From Gemmatimonadota bacterium (GTDB lineage: Bacteria > JBHIER01 > G020348925): a stretch of DNA of 64,000 nucleotides. Position 1 is the stretch's first letter; the number at the start of each line of letters is the position of its first letter. Location: contig CP070758.1 of assembly GCA_020348925.1 (NCBI GenBank), positions 4,569,864 through 4,633,863 on the forward strand, read 5' to 3'. Positions 43,816 through 62,521 of the stretch are shown in pieces. A program made the translations under genes and the position numbers. The notes beneath the pieces are model-generated. The model searched no databases. It saw only the letters and a program-made list of their open reading frames with translations, and had not been told where the DNA came from.

Positions 43816-44904
43816 TCAATTGCCTCGATTCCGGCGGTCACTCCTTAAAATTTTTTTCTGAGGATATTTCTCGAGTATTTCACGAACAGCAGAGAAAACT
43901 TCAGTCACATGAATACCCTCCATGCAATTGAAAAAAGGACAGGCATCCTCAACACATCGCTTGCAGTGAGGAATCCTTGGCATAATAACCGCATGTCCCT
44001 CACCGTAAGGACCCCATCGACGAGGCCCACAATGGACGATAGGCGGGAAAAGTGCAATGACAGGAGTGGCTATGGCAGCAGCAATGTGCATTGGGCCCGT
44101 ACTGTTACTCACGAAGAGATGGGATCGTTGGATGAGAGCGATATATTCCTTCATGGTAAGCTGGCAGGCTTCGAGAAGAGGTTTCTCTCTCATACGGCGA
44201 CTCACTTCCGCAACAAGCGCAGTTTCATCTCTATTGCCTGTTATAATGACTTGAAGACCCAATTCATTCACAATTCGATCGCCAAGTTCAGCAAATTTAT
44301 ATGCCGGCCAATCCCTGGCAGATCCGCCACTCCCCGGATGAAGAATGACGAATCTTTCCGATGCATTCATGCCATTCCTCCGAAGTTTTGATTCAATCTT
44401 GTGGATCGCATCCGGATGAACACGAATGTTGAATCGGACATTTTCAACGACACCTCCCAAGGGATCTAACATATTGAGGTTGTATTCCACCTCGTGTTTC
44501 GAGGCGAATCGGCGATGTTCGTAAATCTTGTCAGTAAATAAAAGTTGATACCAGCGATAGCCCGATCCGATTCTCCTGGGAATTCCTGCGAGAAAGAGAG
44601 CCAAGGCCAGTCTGAAAGTGGGATGGAGGAGAATCGCCAAATGATACCTGCGACTCCGTAGTAATGCGACCAATTGTAGAAAACCCGAGAAGCTTTTATG
44701 TTGTCCTTTTTCATCATCGATCACTATTTCACTCACGTGGGGATGACCCGAGACAAGTTCTCTCGTTAATGGACTCAGCAACATATCCACTGAAGAACTT
44801 GGGAAATTCCTTTTTAACGCCGAAACGACAGGGAGGGATAGCGTCACATCACCTATCTTATCGGTCCGCACAATCAGGATCCGTCTGTCGCTCTCACCGT
44901 GCAT
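43816..44904 (-). CDS. Glycosyltransferase family 9 (heptosyltransferase-like)
   Basis: A 362-residue GT-B enzyme of the ADP-heptose:LPS heptosyltransferase family. Motifs: RILIVRTDKIGDVTLSLPV at the N-terminus, FVILHPGSGGSARDWP and SNSTGPMHIAAAIATPVIAL. It most likely adds heptose or another sugar to a lipopolysaccharide core in the cytoplasm. ATG 44904 follows AGGGGA; the frame extends to 44943 without support. A C-terminal Cys cluster (PHCKRCVEDACPFFNC) might bind metal. Confidence 0.9.
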   Translation of the reverse strand: MHGESDRRILIVRTDKIGDVTLSLPVVSALKRNFPSSSVDMLLSPLTRELVSGHPHVSEIVIDDEKGQHKSFSGFLQLVALLRSRRYHLAILLHPTFRLALALFLAGIPRRIGSGYRWYQLLFTDKIYEHRRFASKHEVEYNLNMLDPLGGVVENVRFNIRVHPDAIHKIESKLRRNGMNASERFVILHPGSGGSARDWPAYKFAELGDRIVNELGLQVIITGNRDETALVAEVSRRMREKPLLEACQLTMKEYIALIQRSHLFVSNSTGPMHIAAAIATPVIALFPPIVHCGPRRWGPYGEGHAVIMPRIPHCKRCVEDACPFFNCMEGIHVTEVFSAVREILEKYPQKKILRSDRRNRGN

Positions 44905-45173
44905 GTTCCCCTGCCTCTCTCTCCAACCAGGTCGCACATACAAAACATGTTACTCTGTGACATATCAGAAAACCGTGATATTTTTTCGTTCAAGAGCATT
45001 CCCACATAACGAGGGCATCAATCTCTCTCAAAGTATAAACAGATATTCTGGTCATCACCTGAGAAAACGCAGTTCTTTTGAAAGAGGTTATTCCCTTATC
45101 ATTATGGGTCATAAAGATACGATAGTCAGACCGTTTTGCCAAGCTCATATCTCTCTGTTTCGGTGGAAACTGA

Positions 45174-46328: not shown

Positions 46329-46887
46329 GCGTATCCTCTCACGATGTGTCTCCCAATGGCACTTCTGTCAGGCTCTCTTTTCCTGTGACGAATCTCGACG
46401 AGAGTACCCTCTATGAACGAAATTCCGGACGTCCCATTATTCCGTGAAACTGGCATACAGTGTATTTTCGAAGACAATTCTTTTCACCAAAGAAGCAGGA
46501 AACACCTTTCACATCTCACGACCCATTCCGGAGGGAAAATCGAAATCCAACACGCCACGCCCTCAAGAACGACACGAGAGTAAGTCCCTTCAAAAAACAG
46601 GACGTGACTGAACGTGTTGCCAATGCACCCTTCGGTTTTTCCTGTGCTCGCATCGACCAATCTTATCTATAATAAGTATAATTAAAAACTTAGTAAGGAG
46701 CAAGTATGATTATTTTAAAATGACGAAGGACCATCATCTTCCTCTTTTCCAGACTCCGAAGACTGCTGGTCTGCCTTCACATTGACGGAACCCGAAATAA
46801 CAAACCATCATTTCTTTTAATCTTGACTTTACTGCTCGCTGTGTGTAATTTAAAAATAGTTGAAAATCATAGTGATAGGAGCATTTG
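46329..46887. other. Divergent intergenic region of the glycan locus
   Basis: This 559-base region lies between a minus-strand and a plus-strand glycosyltransferase. It holds a TATAAT at 46677-46682 with a weak -35, an AAGGAG at 46695 ahead of a five-codon ORF (MIILK, 46706-46723), and the promoter of the next gene. A 70-codon ORF at 46460 has no coding features. Confidence 0.45.
46823..46851 (+). promoter_or_regulatory. Predicted promoter of the plus-strand glycan genes
   Basis: TTGACT, a 17-base spacer and TAATTT. The predicted start of transcription is about 30 bases before ATG 46888 and the four or five glycan genes behind it. Confidence 0.55.
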
Positions 46888-47844
46888 ATGACGATTAGTG
46901 GTTTTTCATTTATCAGAAACGGTATAAAACTCTATTATCCCGTTGTCGAATCCATCAGATCCATTCTCCCAATCTGTGACGAATTTGTTGTTGCAGTCGG
47001 CGCAGGAGATGATGACGACACGACCCGCGAAAAAATTGCATCCATAGATGATCCCAAGATCAAAATAATCGACACGGTATGGGACAGCAAGTATTTTGTT
47101 AAGGGTATTATCAATGCGATCCAGACTGATGTCGCAAAAGGAGCTTGTACAGGAGATTGGCTCTTTTATCTGCAGGCAGATGAAGTTATCCACGAAAAAT
47201 ATTTAGCCGTAATACAACATCGGTGTGAAGAATTATTGAGCAATGAGAACGTTGAGGGATTTCTTTTCAAGTACAGGCATTTTTGGGGAGATTATTGGCA
47301 TTATCACGACTGCCATGGCTGGTATCCGTATGAAATCCGTATTATTCGAAACAGGTCATATATTCATTCCTGGCAAAGTGCGCAATCCTTCCGTCGATTC
47401 GATTATTACGATAATCCTCGTCAAAAGAATGGTACCCATAAATTGAAGGTTGCACGCATGAATGCGGAAATCTACCATTACGGATGGGTACGACCGCCTT
47501 CTATAATGCAACAAAAAAAACGGGCATTACACTCTGTACATTGGGGATTCAAAAGGGCTCAGGAGCATTACGATCAACTGAGCCATGAATTCGATTACGG
47601 TCCTCTGAATCGACTGCCCGTTTTTACAGGGACGCACCCCAAGGTCATGGAGGAACGATTGAAGGAAATTGACTGGCAGGATCGTTTACAGTTTTCGGGA
47701 AAGCCAAATCCCCGGCGGGAAAAACACAAGCACGAGAGACTCAAATACCGTTTTCTTACATTTCTTGAGAAAACGATCCATGCCGGTCAACCGATAGGAG
47801 GATTCAACAATTATATCCTTCTGAAAAATGTACAGGATTTATGA
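46888..47844 (+). CDS. Glycosyltransferase family 2-like protein
   Basis: A 318-residue protein with GT-A features: FIRNGIKLYYPVVESIRSIL at the N-terminus, a nucleotide-binding stretch (FVVAVGAGDDDDT) and QADEVIHEKY around ~95 in place of the usual DxD loop. It probably transfers a sugar within surface-glycan synthesis. AGGAG lies 8 bases before ATG 46888; a TTG at 46885 is adjacent. It overlaps the following glycosyltransferase by four bases (ATGA), showing translational coupling. Confidence 0.82.
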   Translation: MTISGFSFIRNGIKLYYPVVESIRSILPICDEFVVAVGAGDDDDTTREKIASIDDPKIKIIDTVWDSKYFVKGIINAIQTDVAKGACTGDWLFYLQADEVIHEKYLAVIQHRCEELLSNENVEGFLFKYRHFWGDYWHYHDCHGWYPYEIRIIRNRSYIHSWQSAQSFRRFDYYDNPRQKNGTHKLKVARMNAEIYHYGWVRPPSIMQQKKRALHSVHWGFKRAQEHYDQLSHEFDYGPLNRLPVFTGTHPKVMEERLKEIDWQDRLQFSGKPNPRREKHKHERLKYRFLTFLEKTIHAGQPIGGFNNYILLKNVQDL

Positions 47845-52531: not shown

Positions 52532-53647
52532 TTACGATTCATTGGTTTCACGTCTCTCTTTCTCATACAATTCTTCAATTTTCCATTTGAGCCTCATACT
52601 GGCTTGGCCATCGAGCTTGTGAAAATAGTATTCCCTCTTTTTTTCGGCGGACCTTCTCATCTCCTCGGTAGGTTTTAAAGCTCTTTCGATTCCTTCCCGA
52701 ATATCATGAGGTGATTGGATATGAACAAAGGCGTCCTGAAGAAATTCCCGATTATCCTCTGTTAAAAGAGGTTGCCCGTCACTATGCTGCAAACGATCAC
52801 AGGGCAAATCATAGATAATTCCTATTTTATTCAGAGCTAAAAAATCGAAAACAGTACTCGATGCTTCACTAATCAGGGTATCGGCGACTGCCATGAAGGG
52901 GACAATATTGTACTCGGTCACAGGTACAAGCACACTGTGTGTATACTTGGAGACTCTTTTTTGGAAGATTCGATGCTGCCGATGAGGAGCATACTTTCCC
53001 ATCCAACTGTAATGATGCAACTTGATGATTAAATTGTAATCGTTCTGTGTCGCCTCGAAAAGAGCGTCCTTTACATCGTACATACATGTCGGTTTGTATG
53101 TCGGTGCAAAAAGTACCGTGGGCTTTTTCGGATTGAGTCCCCACGTTCTGAGAAATGACACTCTGTCTTGAAATTTGCCTTGGAAATAATAATCGAGTTT
53201 CGGCAACCCTACCACATAAGCTTCGCTTTTTCCCAAAACCCCTGATTCTTTCAGTTTGTCCATCCGATATTTCCCCTCAACAAAAATGTGATAGCGATCC
53301 CCAGAATATTTCGCCAAATTCCGGTATAGGATGTTTTTTATACCTGTTCCGTGATTGAGAAAACAGAGCATTGCGTTGCCGTATTGTCTGGCCTGTCGGA
53401 TGGTGTCACCGGTAATGACGATGTCAAATCCGTTCTTATCCGTAGTGAAGCGATAACCCTGCTGTATCCATTCATCTATGATTGGAGGACGATACGGAAC
53501 GTTGAACAGAAAACGGCGTATTCTTTCCTCCTCAAGTGAAAACCAAACATCATAATTATCATCTTTGAGGAATAACTCAATAACGGAATCAAAGGCCGCT
53601 TTATGATATACAAATCCTATTCTAAACAGAAGTTTTATCTTGGCCAT
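52532..53647 (-). CDS. CDP-glycerol glycerophosphotransferase-like (TagB/TagF family)
   Basis: A 371-residue GT-B-like protein resembling enzymes that add glycerol-phosphate units in teichoic acid and capsule synthesis. Supporting motifs: NHGTGIKNILYRN, VGLPKLDYYF, PTVLFAPTYKPTCMYD, LIIKLHHYS and DTLISEASSTVFDFLALNK. It follows the cytidylyltransferase gene by 15 bp on the same strand, which fits a CDP-polyol donor pathway. The polyol may be glycerol or another alcohol. Last gene of the operon starting at 59273. Confidence 0.85.
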   Translation of the reverse strand: MAKIKLLFRIGFVYHKAAFDSVIELFLKDDNYDVWFSLEEERIRRFLFNVPYRPPIIDEWIQQGYRFTTDKNGFDIVITGDTIRQARQYGNAMLCFLNHGTGIKNILYRNLAKYSGDRYHIFVEGKYRMDKLKESGVLGKSEAYVVGLPKLDYYFQGKFQDRVSFLRTWGLNPKKPTVLFAPTYKPTCMYDVKDALFEATQNDYNLIIKLHHYSWMGKYAPHRQHRIFQKRVSKYTHSVLVPVTEYNIVPFMAVADTLISEASSTVFDFLALNKIGIIYDLPCDRLQHSDGQPLLTEDNREFLQDAFVHIQSPHDIREGIERALKPTEEMRRSAEKKREYYFHKLDGQASMRLKWKIEELYEKERRETNES

Positions 53648-53662
53648 GACGTTGGGGAACCC

Positions 53663-54379
53663 TTAAACGAATTTTTCCTTGAAAGCGAGAGCATCTTGAT
53701 AGGAGGCCGGGGTATCGATGTCAATCCAAAAGCAATGTTCTGGAATGATCACGGGAGCAACATGGTTCTCATCGATCAGGACTTCGACCGCTTCTGAAAC
53801 AGATTCCTTTCCCAAAGGAATTTGTCTCGCAGCGGCACGAAAGAAAGAGTGATTGAGGCGAAAAATTCCACAATCAATCCCATTATAATCGTCCAATTTC
53901 TTCCCTATCGAGAGAATGCGACTCTTTCGAAATAGCACTTTCGTCGCATCTTCAAGATCGTATACGATGTTCAACCTCGGATCGACCAATAACAAGTTTT
54001 TATCACTTGTTGCCGTGTAAATTTCCTCTAATGCTTTCGGGGAAACAAGGTGGTCGGACATCGAAAGTACGAATTGTTCATCTTCTTTTATCCTCGCCCG
54101 TGCTGCATACACTGACAGACCATTTCCCCTGCGCCATTCCCTGTTTTCTACAAAGGTCACATGAAATCCGAAATAGTTATGTTCCCCAAGGTATTCCCGT
54201 ATGAGCCTTGCCCGAAACCCTATCACAAGGACGAAATCAGAAATACCAATGGAACCGAAGTTTTTCAGTATCTGTGATAGAATCGTCTCTTCACCAAAGG
54301 GAAGGAGCGTTTTTGGCAACCGAAATGTTTTCTCCCAGAGTCGTGTTCCTCGCCCCGCCGCAATAAGGACTGCCTTCAT
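53663..54379 (-). CDS. Sugar/polyol-phosphate cytidylyltransferase-like NTP transferase
   Basis: A 238-residue nucleotidyltransferase. LIAAGRGTRLWEKTFRLPKT (residues ~5-24) binds the NTP; RRGNGLSVYAAR, FVLSMSDHLV (~105) and CFWIDIDTPASY (~220) resemble inositol-1-phosphate or phosphocholine cytidylyltransferases (IPCT/LicC type), not glucose-1-P enzymes. It would make a CDP-activated alcohol for the adjacent transferase. AGGAG precedes ATG 54379. Confidence 0.82.
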   Translation of the reverse strand: MKAVLIAAGRGTRLWEKTFRLPKTLLPFGEETILSQILKNFGSIGISDFVLVIGFRARLIREYLGEHNYFGFHVTFVENREWRRGNGLSVYAARARIKEDEQFVLSMSDHLVSPKALEEIYTATSDKNLLLVDPRLNIVYDLEDATKVLFRKSRILSIGKKLDDYNGIDCGIFRLNHSFFRAAARQIPLGKESVSEAVEVLIDENHVAPVIIPEHCFWIDIDTPASYQDALAFKEKFV

Positions 54380-54419: not shown

Positions 54420-56276
54420 TCAAAGATCTCGAAACTGCATGTCGTAAAGCTTTTTGTAGAGCCCCCCCTGCTCTAACAATTCCTCGTGCCTACCCTGTTG
54501 AACGATTCGACCATTATCAATGACAATGATTCGATCAGCGTGTCGAATGGTCGAAAGGCGATGGGCGATCACGAAAACCGTCCGGTTTTCCATCAAATTT
54601 TCAATGGCCTGCTGAACGAGAAACTCCGATTCGGTGTCCAACGCGGAAGTCGCTTCATCAAAGATAAGAATATCAGGATCTTTAAGAATAGCCCGAGCGA
54701 TAGCCAGCCGTTGTCGTTCCCCGCCAGATATCCTGACCCCCCTGTCTCCGATAGTCGTCTCGTATTTTTGAGGTAAAATATCAATAAAGGCATGGGCGTT
54801 GGCCGCCTTCGCGGCCTGGATAATGCGGTCGTCTGAGATACCTTTTATACCATAGGCGATATTGTTCCTGACCGTGTCATTAAAGAGAACGGTTTCTTGA
54901 GTCACGATACCCATTAATCGCCGAAGATCATCAATCCTGACCATTCGCACATCAATCCCGTCGATTTCTATTCGCCCCTCCGTCGGATCATAAAACCGAG
55001 CCAACAGGTCCATCAAGGTTGATTTTCCACCTCCGCTGGGACCGGCCAAGGCTGTAATTTCGCTTCGCCGTACCTCAAGATTGATATGTTCCAATACCAT
55101 ATCGCTCCCATTGTAGCTAAACGAGACATCCTCAAAACGAATAGAATCTTGAAATTTCGGAAGGTCTATTGTTTTTGGGGCCTCACGGATCTTTGGCTGT
55201 ATATCCATAACCTGAAAGATCCGTTTCGCCGCTGCTATTCCAATCTGGACATTACCGTAGCTTCTCACCAGGTCCTTCACCGGTTGTATAATCGAAAAGA
55301 GCACTACTAAGAAAGCAATGAAATATTCCGGTTCGAGAGCGCCCCCTGTGAGAACCTGTCGTCCGCCATACCAAAGAATCAAGACGCACACGATCGTAAT
55401 CACAGCCTCATTCACAGGGCCGAATAACTTTCGTATACGAGTCAACCGAAGCATGGTTTTAAAATACTCTCTGATCTTTTTGGTAAACTTATCAATTTCA
55501 AAGCGCTCCATGGCAAAGGCTTTCACGACGCGTATACCGGAAATTGTTTCCTGAAGCAGAGAAGTGATATCGGCCATCTTCTCCTGAGTCACCGTGCTCT
55601 GTCGTCGGATCCGTTTTCCGAACTTACTCATAATCCAAAACGTGATCGGAAAAATGATTGCGGCAAAAAGGGTCAAACGCCAGCTGAAGTAAAAGAGGAT
55701 TACGGTGTAACAGAAGATCAATAACGGATCCTTGATCATTCCCACGAATCCACCGGTCACACCACTGTTCACGAGGCTCACATCATAGGTGACCCGTGAT
55801 ATGAGCTGACCTGTTCGTTCCCCGTGAAAATAGCTCAGAGAAAGAGTGTGGAAATGTCGATAGAGATCATTTCGCAATCCCATGATGAGCCTCTGCTCCA
55901 CATAGGCCATGAGGTACCCCTGTAAATAGAGAAAAATGCTTTTCAACAGGGACACGACGATCACCAAAAGACACAGCCGTCTCAAGCTCTCTACTCGCGT
56001 CTCCCCCATCATGAGTCGGGCCGCCATGGACTTCATTTTTGAGGAGACACCAGAGAGAAATGAGAGGGGGTGGACCGGTTCCTGATCGTCCCCCCTCACG
56101 CTGATATCATCCTGAACGATGAAACCCTGGGGAGAAAAAACCGTTTTCAGAAAAGGCCCCACCAGCAGAACAAGGAGCCCGCTGAACAGAGTGAAGCATA
56201 CGGTACACAGAATCGATCCGGTCAGACTCTTCCAACTGGGGGTTACGTAACTGAACAGCCGTCTGTATATTTTCAA
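54420..56276 (-). CDS. MsbA-like ABC exporter (fused membrane and ATPase domains)
   Basis: A 618-residue type IV ABC exporter half. Six TMs lie within ~1-310; Walker [10 protein letters not shown] (~413), signature [13 protein letters not shown] (~518), Walker [13 protein letters not shown] (~532) and the switch His in VIAHRLST are intact. The start is set at TTG 56276 (TTGA overlap with the preceding gene's stop, GAAGGA upstream), since the ATG at 56372 lies deep within that gene. It probably flips lipid A, or the lipid-linked glycan made here, across the inner membrane. Confidence 0.9.
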
Positions 56277-57232
56277 TTGATTTTTCCTTCGACACGAGAA
56301 CGCTCCAGTCGCTCCCGGAACCATGCCGCCGTTTTCATGAGCCCATTCCTCAAGTCTGTCTCCGGTTTCCAATGCAACAATTGTTCCGCCCTGGTAATAT
56401 CGGGTCTCCGAACCTTGGGATCATCGATCGGCAGAGATTGGTACAACAAGGGACTGCGACTCCCGGTAATCTCAAGGATGAGCCGAGCCAAATCATTGAT
56501 CGTCATTTCGTCCGGGTTGCCGATGTTCACCGGCTCCTGATTATCGGACATCAACAATCGAAAAAGTCCTTCGACCGTATCAGCGATATAACAGAAACTT
56601 CGCGTTTGGCCTCCGTCTCCATGCACTGTCAACGGTTCTCCTCTCAGGGCTTGAACCATGAACGTTGGAACCGCTCTGCCATCTCCGAACCGCATGCGGG
56701 GTCCATAGGTATTAAAAATTCGAGCAATCCGGGTATTCAAACCGTGAACCCGGTGATAGGCCATCGTCATCGCCTCGGCATATCGTTTCGCCTCATCGTA
56801 TACGCCTCTGGGACCCACAGGATTCACGTTGCCCCAATATGCTTCGCTCTGCGGGCTGACCAGAGGATCGCCGTAAACTTCCGATGTTGAGGCCAGAAAG
56901 AATGTCGCCCGTTTCTTCAAGGCAAGTCCTAAGGCGTTATGCGTTCCGAGCGCGCCCACTTTCAATGTCGGAATGGGTAACCGAAGATAATCTTCCGGAC
57001 TGGCTGGAGATGCAAAATGAAGCACGTAATCAACCGGACCTTCCAAATCGATATGTCGCGTCACATCATAAGGGATAAATTCGAACCGTTTTGTTTGAAG
57101 GTGAGCGACGTTGTCATTTTCCCCTGTGGATAAATTGTCCATGCACACCACCGAATGGCCTTCCTGCAACAAGCGTTCACACAAATATGACCCGATAAAG
57201 CCTGCCCCACCTGTGACTAATGATCTCGGCAC
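56273..57232 (-). CDS. UDP-glucuronate decarboxylase-like NAD-dependent epimerase
   Basis: A 319-residue extended SDR. NAD motif GGAGFIGS (8-15), [25 protein letters not shown] and the YxxxK pair in [11 protein letters not shown] (~Y145, K149). This pattern matches UDP-xylose synthase, which forms UDP-xylose from UDP-glucuronate. It supplies a nucleotide sugar to the surrounding transferases. Separated from apbE by 9 bp and overlapping the exporter start by 4 bases. Confidence 0.9.
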
Positions 57233-57241
57233 GATGTGACC

Positions 57242-58273
57242 TCACTTGTTAAATGTGATGTTCTCCCCGAGCCCACCTGAAACAGCGTGTTCAATCTGGC
57301 CGCCCTCCTCGAAAAGGAGAAGTCCTTCGACCCCAGGGAGACCCTCTATAAATGCCAATCCTTTTTCCGGACCAAGGACGAACACGGCTGTAGCCAGAAT
57401 ATCAGCATCCATGGCCCTTTTGGTAACAATGGTGGCACTCATGCAATTTCGGGCCGGCCATCCTGTTTTTGGATCGAGAATGTGATGATAACGACGGCCA
57501 TCCCGCATGAAGTATCGTTCATAATCTCCGGAAGTGGCCACACTTCCGGAATCAATTTCAATAACGGCTATCATTCTCTGCATATCTCTGGGATGTTGAA
57601 CACCAATGCGCCAGAGCTTCCCATCAGGTTTCGAACCCAGCAGTCCAATATCACCTCCGGCATCCACCAAACTTGAAGCGACACCATTCTCTTTTAATAC
57701 CTGCAAGGCTCGGTCGACGGCATACCCCTTGGCAACTCCGCCCAGATCGATAGCCATACCGGAGTCCGAGAGGCCGACGTGCCTTCCGTTACTCATCATT
57801 ATTTTACCGTAATCGACATGTTCGAGTTGTTCTTCTGTTCTGGCCTGCTCAGGAAGCGTCGGCTCGGCACTGGTGAAATCCCACAGTTGTGAAACCGCTC
57901 CCACGGTGACATCAAAAGCACCCTTCGATATTTCGGAAAAATGGATCGATCGCTGGAGAACAGCAATGACATCTTTTGAAACCATCACGGCATCTCTCCC
58001 GGCGTTGCGGTTTATACTCGACACCTCACTCTCCGCAAGATAGCGTGAAAAGACATGATCGAGACGCTCAATTTCCTCGAAGGCCAATTCAAGAGTGGCC
58101 CGTGATTTCCCTTCATCCTTGTCAAAGATCTCGATGCGGACCAATGTATCCATGAGCACCTTGGTCCGTTCTGTTGACCCCACCTCATGCGTTCTCAGAA
58201 ATCTGTATCGCCATATGGAGATGGCCGCAAATATGACACAAAAGAGTACAAAACTGACTGGAAGGCGCTTCAT
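57242..58273 (-). CDS. apbE: ApbE-like FAD:protein FMN transferase
   Basis: A 343-residue flavin transferase anchored by one N-terminal TM (~5-22), with the domain outside the inner membrane. It links FMN to Thr/Ser residues of redox proteins. Motifs: DLGGVAKGYAVDRAL, VDAGGDIGLLG, ATSGDYERYF and HHILDPKTGWPA with the metal-site Asp/Thr residues. No flavinylation target gene is nearby, and its place in a glycan operon is unusual. Confidence 0.92.
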   Translation of the reverse strand: MKRLPVSFVLFCVIFAAISIWRYRFLRTHEVGSTERTKVLMDTLVRIEIFDKDEGKSRATLELAFEEIERLDHVFSRYLAESEVSSINRNAGRDAVMVSKDVIAVLQRSIHFSEISKGAFDVTVGAVSQLWDFTSAEPTLPEQARTEEQLEHVDYGKIMMSNGRHVGLSDSGMAIDLGGVAKGYAVDRALQVLKENGVASSLVDAGGDIGLLGSKPDGKLWRIGVQHPRDMQRMIAVIEIDSGSVATSGDYERYFMRDGRRYHHILDPKTGWPARNCMSATIVTKRAMDADILATAVFVLGPEKGLAFIEGLPGVEGLLLFEEGGQIEHAVSGGLGENITFNK

Positions 58274-58301: not shown

Positions 58302-59273
58302 TTATCTTCTCCTATGAACCGAGAGAGAAACCAAATTCATTAAAGCCGACTTGGCCGGGGAGTCATCAAGGCCTTTCACAAGAGCGGCAGCACGCTGGGC
58401 ATACTCCTTTGCTTTGGAAGCGGCGTATTCCAGACCTCCGTGGGTTCGAATAAAGGAGCGCACATGCTCCCAGCCTCTGGTGTCTATTTCCTTCTCGATG
58501 AGCGCCTTTATCTTTCGCGCCTCCGATTGAGAAGCCGTCTCGAGGGCACGGATGAGCGGCAGGGTAAGATGCTTTCCCCTCAAGTCACTTCCTGAAGGCT
58601 TCCCCGTCTCTTTCTCCGTTCCCTCGAAATCCAGAATATCATCAGTAATCTGAAAAGCCAATCCAAGATTTTCCCCAAACTCCGCCATGGTCCGCCGCAA
58701 GTGAGTATCACCCTCGGCCAAGATGGGTCCCATCTCGCAGCCGGCCGCGAAGAGCGAGGCCGTCTTATCGGCGATGACCTTGAAATAGATCTCCTCCGCT
58801 GTTTCCAGGCCTTCACTCTGCTGAATCTGGTGGATCTCTCCACTGCTCAGTCGCACGGTGGCTCTGGCTAAAATATCGAGGATCAGCTGAGATCGAATAC
58901 CGACAAAAAGGGAAAAGGCATGGGACAACAGGTAGTCCCCCATGAGAATGGATGCTCGGCTTGACCATATTGAATGAACGGAGAGTTCACCGCGACGCAT
59001 TTCGGATTCGTCAACGACGTCATCGTGTATCAAGGTCGCCACGTGGATCAATTCAAGGCCGGCCGCAGCCCTCATTGCCTCATCCGGGACATTTCCGCAT
59101 ACTTTCGTCGAAAGGAGAACAAGGATCGGGCGCAGAAATTTCCCCTTCAGAGCGACAATGTATTGAGCCATTTCGCTCACCAGGGCTACTTCGGAGGCGA
59201 GGGTCTCCTTCAGAACCCGCTTCGTGCCCTCGAGCTCCTCTCGGATTGGGAATATGATATCTTTCATCTCCAT
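58302..59273 (-). CDS. Trans-polyprenyl diphosphate synthase
   Basis: A 323-residue all-E prenyl elongase. First Asp-rich motif in LIHDDVVDESEMRRG (DDVVD), second in QITDDILDFEG (DDILD). It condenses isopentenyl-PP to octa- or similar long prenyl diphosphates, for quinones or lipid carriers; chain length cannot be read with confidence. First gene of the minus-strand operon reaching 52532. M1 (59273) or M3 may be the start, with GATGGAG overlapping. Confidence 0.92.
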   Translation of the reverse strand: MEMKDIIFPIREELEGTKRVLKETLASEVALVSEMAQYIVALKGKFLRPILVLLSTKVCGNVPDEAMRAAAGLELIHVATLIHDDVVDESEMRRGELSVHSIWSSRASILMGDYLLSHAFSLFVGIRSQLILDILARATVRLSSGEIHQIQQSEGLETAEEIYFKVIADKTASLFAAGCEMGPILAEGDTHLRRTMAEFGENLGLAFQITDDILDFEGTEKETGKPSGSDLRGKHLTLPLIRALETASQSEARKIKALIEKEIDTRGWEHVRSFIRTHGGLEYAASKAKEYAQRAAALVKGLDDSPAKSALMNLVSLSVHRRR

Positions 59274-61012: not shown

Positions 61013-62521
61013 ATGATTTTAAAAAGTGATCTCCCGGACGCTACGTTTATCATTTCCTCAGGCCCTAATGCTTTGAGCACGTCTGGACTCCCGTCGGTCT
61101 TTTTGGGATACAAGGCTCTCTCTGCAGACGGCGTCGCAAAAGAGGGCATCTGGGCAGAGTGGACCTGGAACGGCAAAGAGTTTCAACTTACGAATGACAG
61201 GTATGGTTTTTATCCCCTCTTTTACTTTCGTACAAAAAATTCTTTCGGCACATCCACCTCGCTCTATCACTTGTTAAAACACGTCACCCCACCCAAGCTG
61301 AATGACGGGGCGATAGCGGTTTTTCTGAGGCTGGGCTTCTTTCTCAAGAATGATACTCCTTTTGAATCCATCCACGCCGTGCCGCCCGGATGTACGATCA
61401 CCTGGCATGATGACACGCTGAACATTCAAACCGATGATTACCCCTTCGTACCTGCCCCAAACGCATTATCGAAAAAGGCGGCTCTGAGAGCATACGGGGA
61501 ACTATTTCAAGCCGGAATAGCGCGGATGCTGCCGAGTGCCTCCGACAAAGTGGGACTTCCTCTGAGCGGCGGTCGAGATTCACGGCATATTTTATTTGCT
61601 CTGCTGCGCTCAGGATATAAACCTGCTGAATGTCTTACCATGATGTATTTTCCACCGAGGCCGAATGACGACGCACGGGTCGCAGGCAAAATCGCCCAGG
61701 CGCTCGGACTGAAGCACACCCTTTTGAAACCCCCAAAATATCTGTTGAGCTACGAGATACGGAAGAATATCATCACCCACTTTACGACTGACGAGCACAC
61801 CTGGTTATTGCCCCTGGCCGATTATGTGGAACAAGAGAATTTCACGCTGTTGTATGACGGAATAGGTGGGGGTGTCTTATCCGATGGCCGTTTTCTCAGC
61901 GAACATCGTCTGAAACTCTATGATTCGGGCAACTTCAATGCGTTGGCCCAGTCACTTCTGGGAGAGGAGAAACGGCTTTCGCACATTCTCTCAAAACAAC
62001 TCCACCAAAGGTGGAACCGTGAATTGGCTGTAAATCATGTGGCATGTGAGCTCGCCAAATATGCCAACACCAACAATCCCATCGGGCAGTTCTTTTTTTG
62101 GAATAGAACGAGAAGGGAAATCGCACTCAGCCCTTGGAGTATTTTGGGAAGATGCGTTCACGTGCTGGCCCCGTTTCTGAATCACGATGTGTACGATTTG
62201 CTGACAACACTGCCTCTCAGCTATTTTCTCGATCACTCATTTCATACCGATACCATCAATTATCACTATCCAAAATATTCCAGCTTGCCGTACGCATCTC
62301 ATAAGCTTTACAATAACAGACTCCGCTGGAACGAATACGCTCTGTTACTGCGGGACCTTCGTTCGTTCTTTCTGACGCAGGAATCGGAGCACTCCTATGT
62401 TCGCCGCTCATATCTTATTTTAAGATTGCTGCAATCGCTCATCGACATCAAGTGCAGATCACGATTGCCTCGGAGTCTCGCTTACCCGATATATCTAAAG
62501 CAGTTAGAAAATCTCATCTGA
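61013..62521 (+). CDS. Asparagine-synthetase-like amidotransferase lacking the glutaminase Cys
   Basis: A 502-residue protein. The C-domain has the ATP pyrophosphatase loop LPLSGGRDSRH (~182-192) and further synthetase motifs (DGIGGGVLSDG, ~290). The N-terminal ~140 residues keep the class II glutaminase fold (FQLTNDRYGFYPLFYF) but start MILKSDLP, with no Cys2, so glutamine cannot be used in the usual way. It may use free ammonia or another amine, like beta-lactam synthetase relatives, perhaps to amidate a uronic acid in the surface glycan. AAGG precedes ATG 61013. Confidence 0.85.
   Translation: MILKSDLPDATFIISSGPNALSTSGLPSVFLGYKALSADGVAKEGIWAEWTWNGKEFQLTNDRYGFYPLFYFRTKNSFGTSTSLYHLLKHVTPPKLNDGAIAVFLRLGFFLKNDTPFESIHAVPPGCTITWHDDTLNIQTDDYPFVPAPNALSKKAALRAYGELFQAGIARMLPSASDKVGLPLSGGRDSRHILFALLRSGYKPAECLTMMYFPPRPNDDARVAGKIAQALGLKHTLLKPPKYLLSYEIRKNIITHFTTDEHTWLLPLADYVEQENFTLLYDGIGGGVLSDGRFLSEHRLKLYDSGNFNALAQSLLGEEKRLSHILSKQLHQRWNRELAVNHVACELAKYANTNNPIGQFFFWNRTRREIALSPWSILGRCVHVLAPFLNHDVYDLLTTLPLSYFLDHSFHTDTINYHYPKYSSLPYASHKLYNNRLRWNEYALLLRDLRSFFLTQESEHSYVRRSYLILRLLQSLIDIKCRSRLPRSLAYPIYLKQLENLI

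Follow-up and report, generated by a model that had tools for sequence, protein, structure and literature searches.

The known users of CDP-inositol are membrane CDP-alcohol phosphotransferases. In di-myo-inositol phosphate synthesis (IPCT/DIPPS; structures 2xme, 4mnd, and 4jd0), an inositol-1-phosphate cytidylyltransferase (IPCT) domain linked to inositol-1-phosphate synthase (MIPS) is followed by such a phosphotransferase (PF01066), often fused to it. CDP-inositol serves as the donor for CDP-alcohol phosphotransferases in both solute and lipid synthesis (PMC9246714), and an alternative inositol-lipid cluster of Bacteroidetes, with MIPS and an NTP transferase as the proposed makers of CDP-inositol, has a CDP-alcohol phosphatidyltransferase and a HAD hydrolase, its function being likewise proposed. 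In Caulobacter, the IPCT-like cytidylyltransferase CpgD, whose best structural match is IPCT 4jd0, acts on phosphoglycerate to make CDP-glycerate, an activated headgroup for the diderm envelope lipid ceramide diphosphoglycerate, with no MIPS step described in the parts of the source covered (PMC12275187).

The wall teichoic acid transferases TagB, TagF, and TarL and the TagF-like capsule polymerases of Gram-negative bacteria (Cps3D, 8qoy) share a fold (PF04464) and CDP-polyol donor chemistry; in the Gram-negative polymerases, the TagF domain is fused to a GT-A or GT-B domain. Teichoic-acid-like polymers and capsules are already known in Gram-negative bacteria and would not by themselves be a novelty; the paper on these capsules does not mention inositol (PMC5974469). 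In the open-licence PMC literature, where absence is weak evidence, we found no CDP-inositol user of the TagB/TagF family, nothing on CDP-inositol together with glycerophosphotransferase or on inositol with Cloacimonadota, and nothing useful on phosphoinositol in lipopolysaccharide (LPS).

Here, we describe a gene pair in a 64,000-nucleotide stretch of a Gemmatimonadota genome (the window). It shares the IPCT-type cytidylyltransferase and the MIPS linkage of di-myo-inositol phosphate synthesis, but the downstream enzyme is a GT-B protein of the TagF fold. Compared with TagB, TagF, TarL, and Cps3D, this transferase has a single domain, an IPCT partner instead of TagD or TarI, and a donor predicted to be CDP-inositol. 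We propose, with a probability of roughly 0.6 based on sequence comparisons, that the two enzymes perform activation and transfer, respectively, in a pathway for phosphoinositol decoration.

Results

The locus in the window

Along the minus strand, genes for polyprenyl diphosphate synthase, ApbE, UDP-xylose synthase, an MsbA-type exporter, the IPCT-type cytidylyltransferase, and the TagF-type transferase follow one another (Table 1). The exporter gene ends 40 bp upstream of the cytidylyltransferase gene, and the transferase gene follows after a further 15 bp; the annotated start of the exporter overlaps the UDP-xylose synthase gene, and the real start is probably slightly downstream. The single-contig genome (5.04 Mb) contains no other PF04464 gene, five GT9 genes, and LpxC, which makes a lipid-A-making diderm a fair inference. 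These results bear out the sequence-only reading of this DNA, which had placed a cytidylyltransferase beside a TagB/TagF-like transferase, an MsbA-type exporter, and UDP-xylose synthase in an apparently diderm cell. UDP-xylose synthase (human UXS1 match, E 4e-100) was ruled out as an essential partner because it is not conserved with the pair: it was found in none of the other 36 loci described below, the single weak match (L053) being a dTDP-glucose dehydratase.

Table 1. Features of the window and the evidence for their assignment
Feature	Position	Strand	Evidence
Array of permease-like genes	543-25130	+	Pfam (first gene)
GT9 (heptosyltransferase-family) gene in the glycan region	43816-44943	-	PF01075, 99.1 bits
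Glycosyltransferase-like protein	46885-47844	+	by eye; no Pfam match at 1e-6
Single-domain TagB/TagF-type phosphotransferase, 371 aa; putative CDP-inositol:acceptor inositolphosphotransferase	52532-53647	-	PF04464 (Pfam), 51.8 bits (cut-off 22.1); AF2 fold
IPCT-type nucleotidyltransferase, 238 aa	53663-54379	-	NTP_transferase PF00483 (Pfam); IPCT-DIPPS model; PDB profile
MsbA-type ABC exporter	54420-56372	-	best model TIGR02203 (MsbA lipid A exporter), 522.5 bits, below cut-off 602
UDP-glucuronate decarboxylase (UDP-xylose synthase)	56273-57232	-	PDB search: 2b69, 4gll, 4m55, 4lk3 at ~336-338 bits
ApbE	57242-58273	-	
Polyprenyl diphosphate synthase	58302-59273	-	
Asparagine-synthase-like protein	61013-62521	+	PF00733, weak

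Elsewhere in the window, the glycosyltransferase-like protein is common to loci L031, L045, and L051, where it is encoded near the pair, and the asparagine-synthase-like gene lies amid glycosyltransferase genes. The permease-like array comprises nine consecutive or nearly consecutive genes for proteins of ~770-810 aa that resemble MacB/FtsX-type ABC permease paralogues and look like a large tandem expansion; the first gene, scanned as the representative, matches MacB_PCD and FtsX, and no intervening ATPase gene was recognised by eye.

The cytidylyltransferase is of the IPCT type

The best NCBIfam model for the cytidylyltransferase is IPCT-DIPPS, at 124 bits against a cut-off of 580 that was set for a fused two-domain protein. 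Models for RmlA, GalU, and GlmU score far below it, and a sugar-1-phosphate uridylyl- or thymidylyltransferase is therefore not favoured. With a profile built from three sequences, the top three matches in the PDB are IPCT structures (2xme, 92.3 bits; 4mnd, 89.9; 4jd0, 88.7), followed by glucose-1-phosphate cytidylyltransferase (45.5 bits) and LicC (1jyk). The enzyme had earlier been described as IPCT/LicC-like; the first half of that label stands, with structures at 89-92 bits, whereas identity with LicC (phosphocholine) is ruled out at 36 bits.

Residues R13, K23, and D109 are invariant in 26/26 transferase-linked IPCTs and match, by eye and at a constant offset of 3, the active-site residues R16, K26, and D112 of Thermotoga maritima IPCT as named in the part of PMC12275187 considered. 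The same active-site R/K/D set is present in CpgD, so these residues give no proof of substrate. The window protein has no second domain in Pfam, and thus no fused CDP-alcohol phosphotransferase, and the four PF01066 genes of the genome all lie elsewhere.

In a tree of 37 sequences, with IPCT domains that have a CDP-alcohol phosphotransferase fused behind them as references (five of nine checked by Pfam), 24 of the 26 transferase-linked IPCTs fall into one supported clade (98/99). The other two (L050 and L054) group with the fused types, where the tree is poorly resolved, and are also IPCT-like by NCBIfam (118 and 127 bits). Because these two are paired with the same transferase, it may be the activity that matters and not one gene lineage.

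The transferase has the TagF fold

A profile of the transferase matched 8qoy in the PDB, and an AF2 model based on a 30-row alignment (pLDDT 88.5, pTM 0.88) had TagF (3l7l) as its best match both in Foldseek (E 2e-11) and in VIA-align 2 (Z 25.1, rmsd 3.6 Å, 331 aligned residues, 13% identity). The top five VIA-align 2 rows are all TagF (Z 24.6-25.1), followed by TarL with CDP-ribitol (23.7), Cps3D (23.3), and UDP-GlcNAc 2-epimerases (up to 22.8); since these epimerases score near TagF, the fold alone does not settle the function. The candidate catalytic histidines H99 (in HGTG) and H211 (in KLH) are invariant in 30/30 homologues, as read from the alignment; in TagF, the catalytic residues are H444 and H584 according to the part of PMC5974469 considered. 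The protein consists of one Pfam domain and lacks the fused GT-A or GT-B domain of the Gram-negative polymerases, as well as any TPR or polymerase region.

Taken with the cytidylyltransferase results, this supports the earlier proposal that a TagB/TagF-type transferase of a diderm cell is supplied by a CDP-polyol pathway and narrows the polyol, which is most likely myo-inositol rather than glycerol, ribitol, or choline.

The pair recurs across phyla

A scan of genome contigs with the transferase alignment (two short peptide patterns) yielded 34 loci, which is a lower bound; the same kind of scan with the IPCT sequence as query found none. One genome (G030) has the module twice (L022 and L023), bringing the total to 36. 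Locus titles include Gemmatimonadetes, Delongbacteria, Eisenbacteria, Zixibacteria, Calditrichota, Krumholzibacteriota, Cloacimonadota, KSB1, Tariuqbacter, Neomarinimicrobiota, and one Caldisericaceae, and some read merely "bacterium". The FCB group of NCBI takes in several of the carrier phyla (Gemmatimonadota, Cloacimonadota, Zixiibacteriota, and Fidelibacterota), and transferase identity across FCB-type phyla is mostly 57-69%.

Seven of the 36 loci are cut by a contig end or hold only a partial transferase. Among the 29 uncut loci, an IPCT gene lies within 1.7 kb of the transferase gene in 25; L060 has nucleotidyltransferases, none of them IPCT-like, and no nucleotidyltransferase was found near the transferase in L047, L055, and L057. 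In L047, MIPS adjoins the transferase in place of IPCT. Gene order varies between phyla: some have the IPCT gene first, like the window, and others the transferase gene. Recurrence in both orders and in many phyla shows that the pairing is not due to chance, and the change of order argues that the genes are linked by function and not by frozen synteny.

A second, distant PF04464 paralogue sits beside the pair in L042 (11816-12868), L053 (6814-7863), L051 (11800-12861), and L052 (13252-14313), with the L042 and L051 copies identified by Pfam scan; in L042 and L053, it lies between IPCT and MsbA. Another gene family occurs near the pair (L042:14818-15822, L053:9757-10671, L056:2714-3730) and adjoins MsbA in L042 and L053; its L053 member is a DUF3108 protein.

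MIPS is linked to the transferase

MIPS adjoins the transferase in 8/36 loci (L044, L047, L048, L049, L050, L051, L052, and L063), as identified by Pfam in L049 and L050 (PF07994, E 4e-99 and 7e-105) and by BLAST clustering in the other six; L097, found later, is a ninth such locus. The two genes are 3, 19, and 31 bp apart in L048, L049, and L052, respectively, and overlap by 4 bp in L051. GT9, MIPS, transferase, and IPCT genes are all together in L050 and L051. At the genome level, MIPS is present in 31 of 35 carriers; the exceptions are the genomes of L062 (a cut contig) and of L055, L057, and L060, in which the transferase shares 53, 49, and 42% identity, respectively, with that of the window. 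Among 386 relatives, MIPS is present in 10 of 12 carriers compared to 147 of 374 non-carriers (Fisher p 0.0045, a value that ignores shared ancestry).

The window's own genome has one MIPS gene (C1:721609), away from the pair and adjoined by a gene for a CDP-alcohol phosphotransferase that resembles archaetidylinositol phosphate and phosphatidylinositol phosphate synthases and scores below their cut-offs. This neighbour alone could explain the presence of MIPS, which counts against a link between MIPS and the pair in this genome. The two genes overlap (G000:C1:720398-722136; L021:6399-8137), suggesting that the bacterium may have the CDP-diacylglycerol route to phosphatidylinositol phosphate lipids as well.

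Divergent relatives differ in loop residues and neighbours

Signature columns were picked by comparing 27 IPCT/MIPS-type transferases with 3 divergent sequences, and eight further sequences were then examined at these columns. F96, N98, and L107, which flank H99, are present in 32/32 IPCT/MIPS-type transferases and 0/6 divergent ones; other picked columns separate the groups less cleanly, with G102, I103, and S264 common to L095 and L096. The G061 transferase (L066) has the F96/N98/L107 signature in a MIPS-positive genome, yet the 4 kb of sequence covered there showed no IPCT, which counts against the proposed pathway.

The six divergent relatives lack an IPCT, and five of them adjoin genes for other CDP-donor enzymes. 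L055 and L057 lie beside a PsrA-like dehydrogenase, LicD, and a PEP mutase with a cytidylyltransferase-like N-terminal part (scanned in L055). Similar genes serve in phosphonate cytidylylation for cell-surface tailoring, in which the donor is a CDP-activated phosphonate and LicD-type genes are neighbours (PMC6697681); the genomes of L055 and L057 have no MIPS match. L060 is beside LicD, a PsrA-like dehydrogenase, and non-IPCT nucleotidyltransferases; L096 is beside a glycerol-3-phosphate cytidylyltransferase (171.4 bits, cut-off 165.4), two LicD-like genes, and one non-IPCT nucleotidyltransferase, to which the nucleotidyltransferase beside L067 is 29% identical. No CDP-donor gene of these kinds was recognised at L095.

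L067 comes from a MIPS-positive genome and has neither an IPCT-like neighbour nor the signature, which suggests that the signature tracks IPCT better than MIPS. As the six divergent transferases differ overall, however, the signature may be just a clade marker. The idea that phosphonates are used by carriers lacking MIPS fits L055 and L057 alone and fails for G115 and G385: PEP mutase exceeds its cut-off in 3 of 44 genomes (G085, G087, and the MIPS carrier G081, home of L050) and is absent from G090, G091, G115, and G385.

Envelope genes surround many copies

MsbA-like genes are present in 15 loci of the cluster table, including the window, and adjoin the pair or lie one gene away from it in the window, L041, L042, L053, L058, and L059. 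Of 32 loci, 14 contain GT9 genes, 18 in all, where genome density predicts 0.45; general clustering of glycan genes would also raise the observed number. LpxC is encoded by 34 of 36 genomes. On this genomic evidence, the core of LPS or lipooligosaccharide (LOS) is favoured as the acceptor. Both copies in G030 (L022, L023) are without visible glycan genes, and L044, L048, and L049 are likewise standalone operons; for G030 and some Cloacimonadota, an LPS-core acceptor is not favoured and a membrane lipid is possible.

Discussion

In the pathway that we propose, MIPS, encoded elsewhere in the window's own genome and in the same operon in Cloacimonadota, would convert glucose-6-phosphate to inositol-1-phosphate, from which the IPCT-type enzyme would form CDP-inositol with CTP. 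If the transferase behaves like TagF, it would lie at the cytoplasmic membrane's inner face; there, an acceptor hydroxyl would attack CDP-inositol to give phosphodiester-linked inositol and CMP. The acceptor would most likely be a lipid-linked envelope glycan, with the LPS/LOS core before flipping by MsbA as our best guess. Enzyme families, fold, pairing, and MIPS linkage are supported by sequence; from them we infer CDP-inositol as the in vivo donor, the nature of the acceptor, and a single transfer. Substrate switching among COG1213 cytidylyltransferases, as in the use of phosphoglycerate by CpgD, counts against the assignment of inositol-1-phosphate.

The same enzymes could instead act on a lipid, with CDP-inositol yielding an inositol phospholipid or a phosphoinositol sphingolipid, as in the CDP-alcohol phosphotransferase route. 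CDP-inositol lipid routes have been proposed in Bacteroidetes, in the part of PMC9246714 considered, and the standalone operons (L044, L048, L049, L022, and L023) suggest an acceptor found in every cell. Nonetheless, MsbA and GT9 genes frequently adjoin the pair and the window's genome already has a PIP-synthase-like gene, so we regard a lipid acceptor as unlikely. We give somewhat less credence to a cytidylyltransferase acting on another polyol or amino-alcohol phosphate (glycerol, glycerate, choline, or ribitol), with a conventional teichoic-acid-like or phosphocholine decoration as the product. The flexibility of the family and the glycerol-3-phosphate cytidylyltransferase and LicD genes at the divergent sister locus L096 fit such a route; against it, IPCT structures outscore LicC by more than 50 bits, MIPS adjoins and co-occurs with the transferase, and the glycerol-type locus has different transferase loop residues.

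The literal teichoic-acid-like interpretation, in which the transferase polymerises and the product is a poly(glycosyl-inositol phosphate) capsule or O-chain, is improbable to us as well: the TagF fold and the several glycosyltransferases within the window would agree with it, but the enzyme is a single domain without a fused glycosyltransferase, TPR, or polymerase region, copies occur alone, and inspection of the listed open reading frames by eye revealed no KpsM/KpsT-type or Wzx/Wzy export gene. A soluble osmolyte such as di-inositol phosphate or glycerophosphoinositol is very improbable, even though IPCT is known from the di-inositol phosphate pathway, given that the window protein lacks a fused CDP-alcohol phosphotransferase, envelope genes adjoin the pair, and TagF-type enzymes work at membranes.

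Extending phosphoinositol decoration beyond the window, we tentatively suggest, at less than even odds, that many FCB-type phyla carry an LPS/LOS core with phosphodiester-linked myo-inositol, made from CDP-inositol by a previously unrecognised family of TagF-fold inositolphosphotransferases. If true, this would be a third cellular use of CDP-inositol, after solutes and inositol lipids, and the teichoic-acid transferase superfamily would gain inositol among its donors. Divergent members near genes for glycerol-3-phosphate or phosphonate cytidylylation could serve as a natural series from which to learn what determines donor specificity. The FCB-type phyla concerned have few or no genetically studied members. 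For Gemmatimonadota, Cloacimonadota, Calditrichota, Zixibacteria, and further phyla with poorly known envelopes, the proposal would predict a surface feature that contains phosphoinositol.
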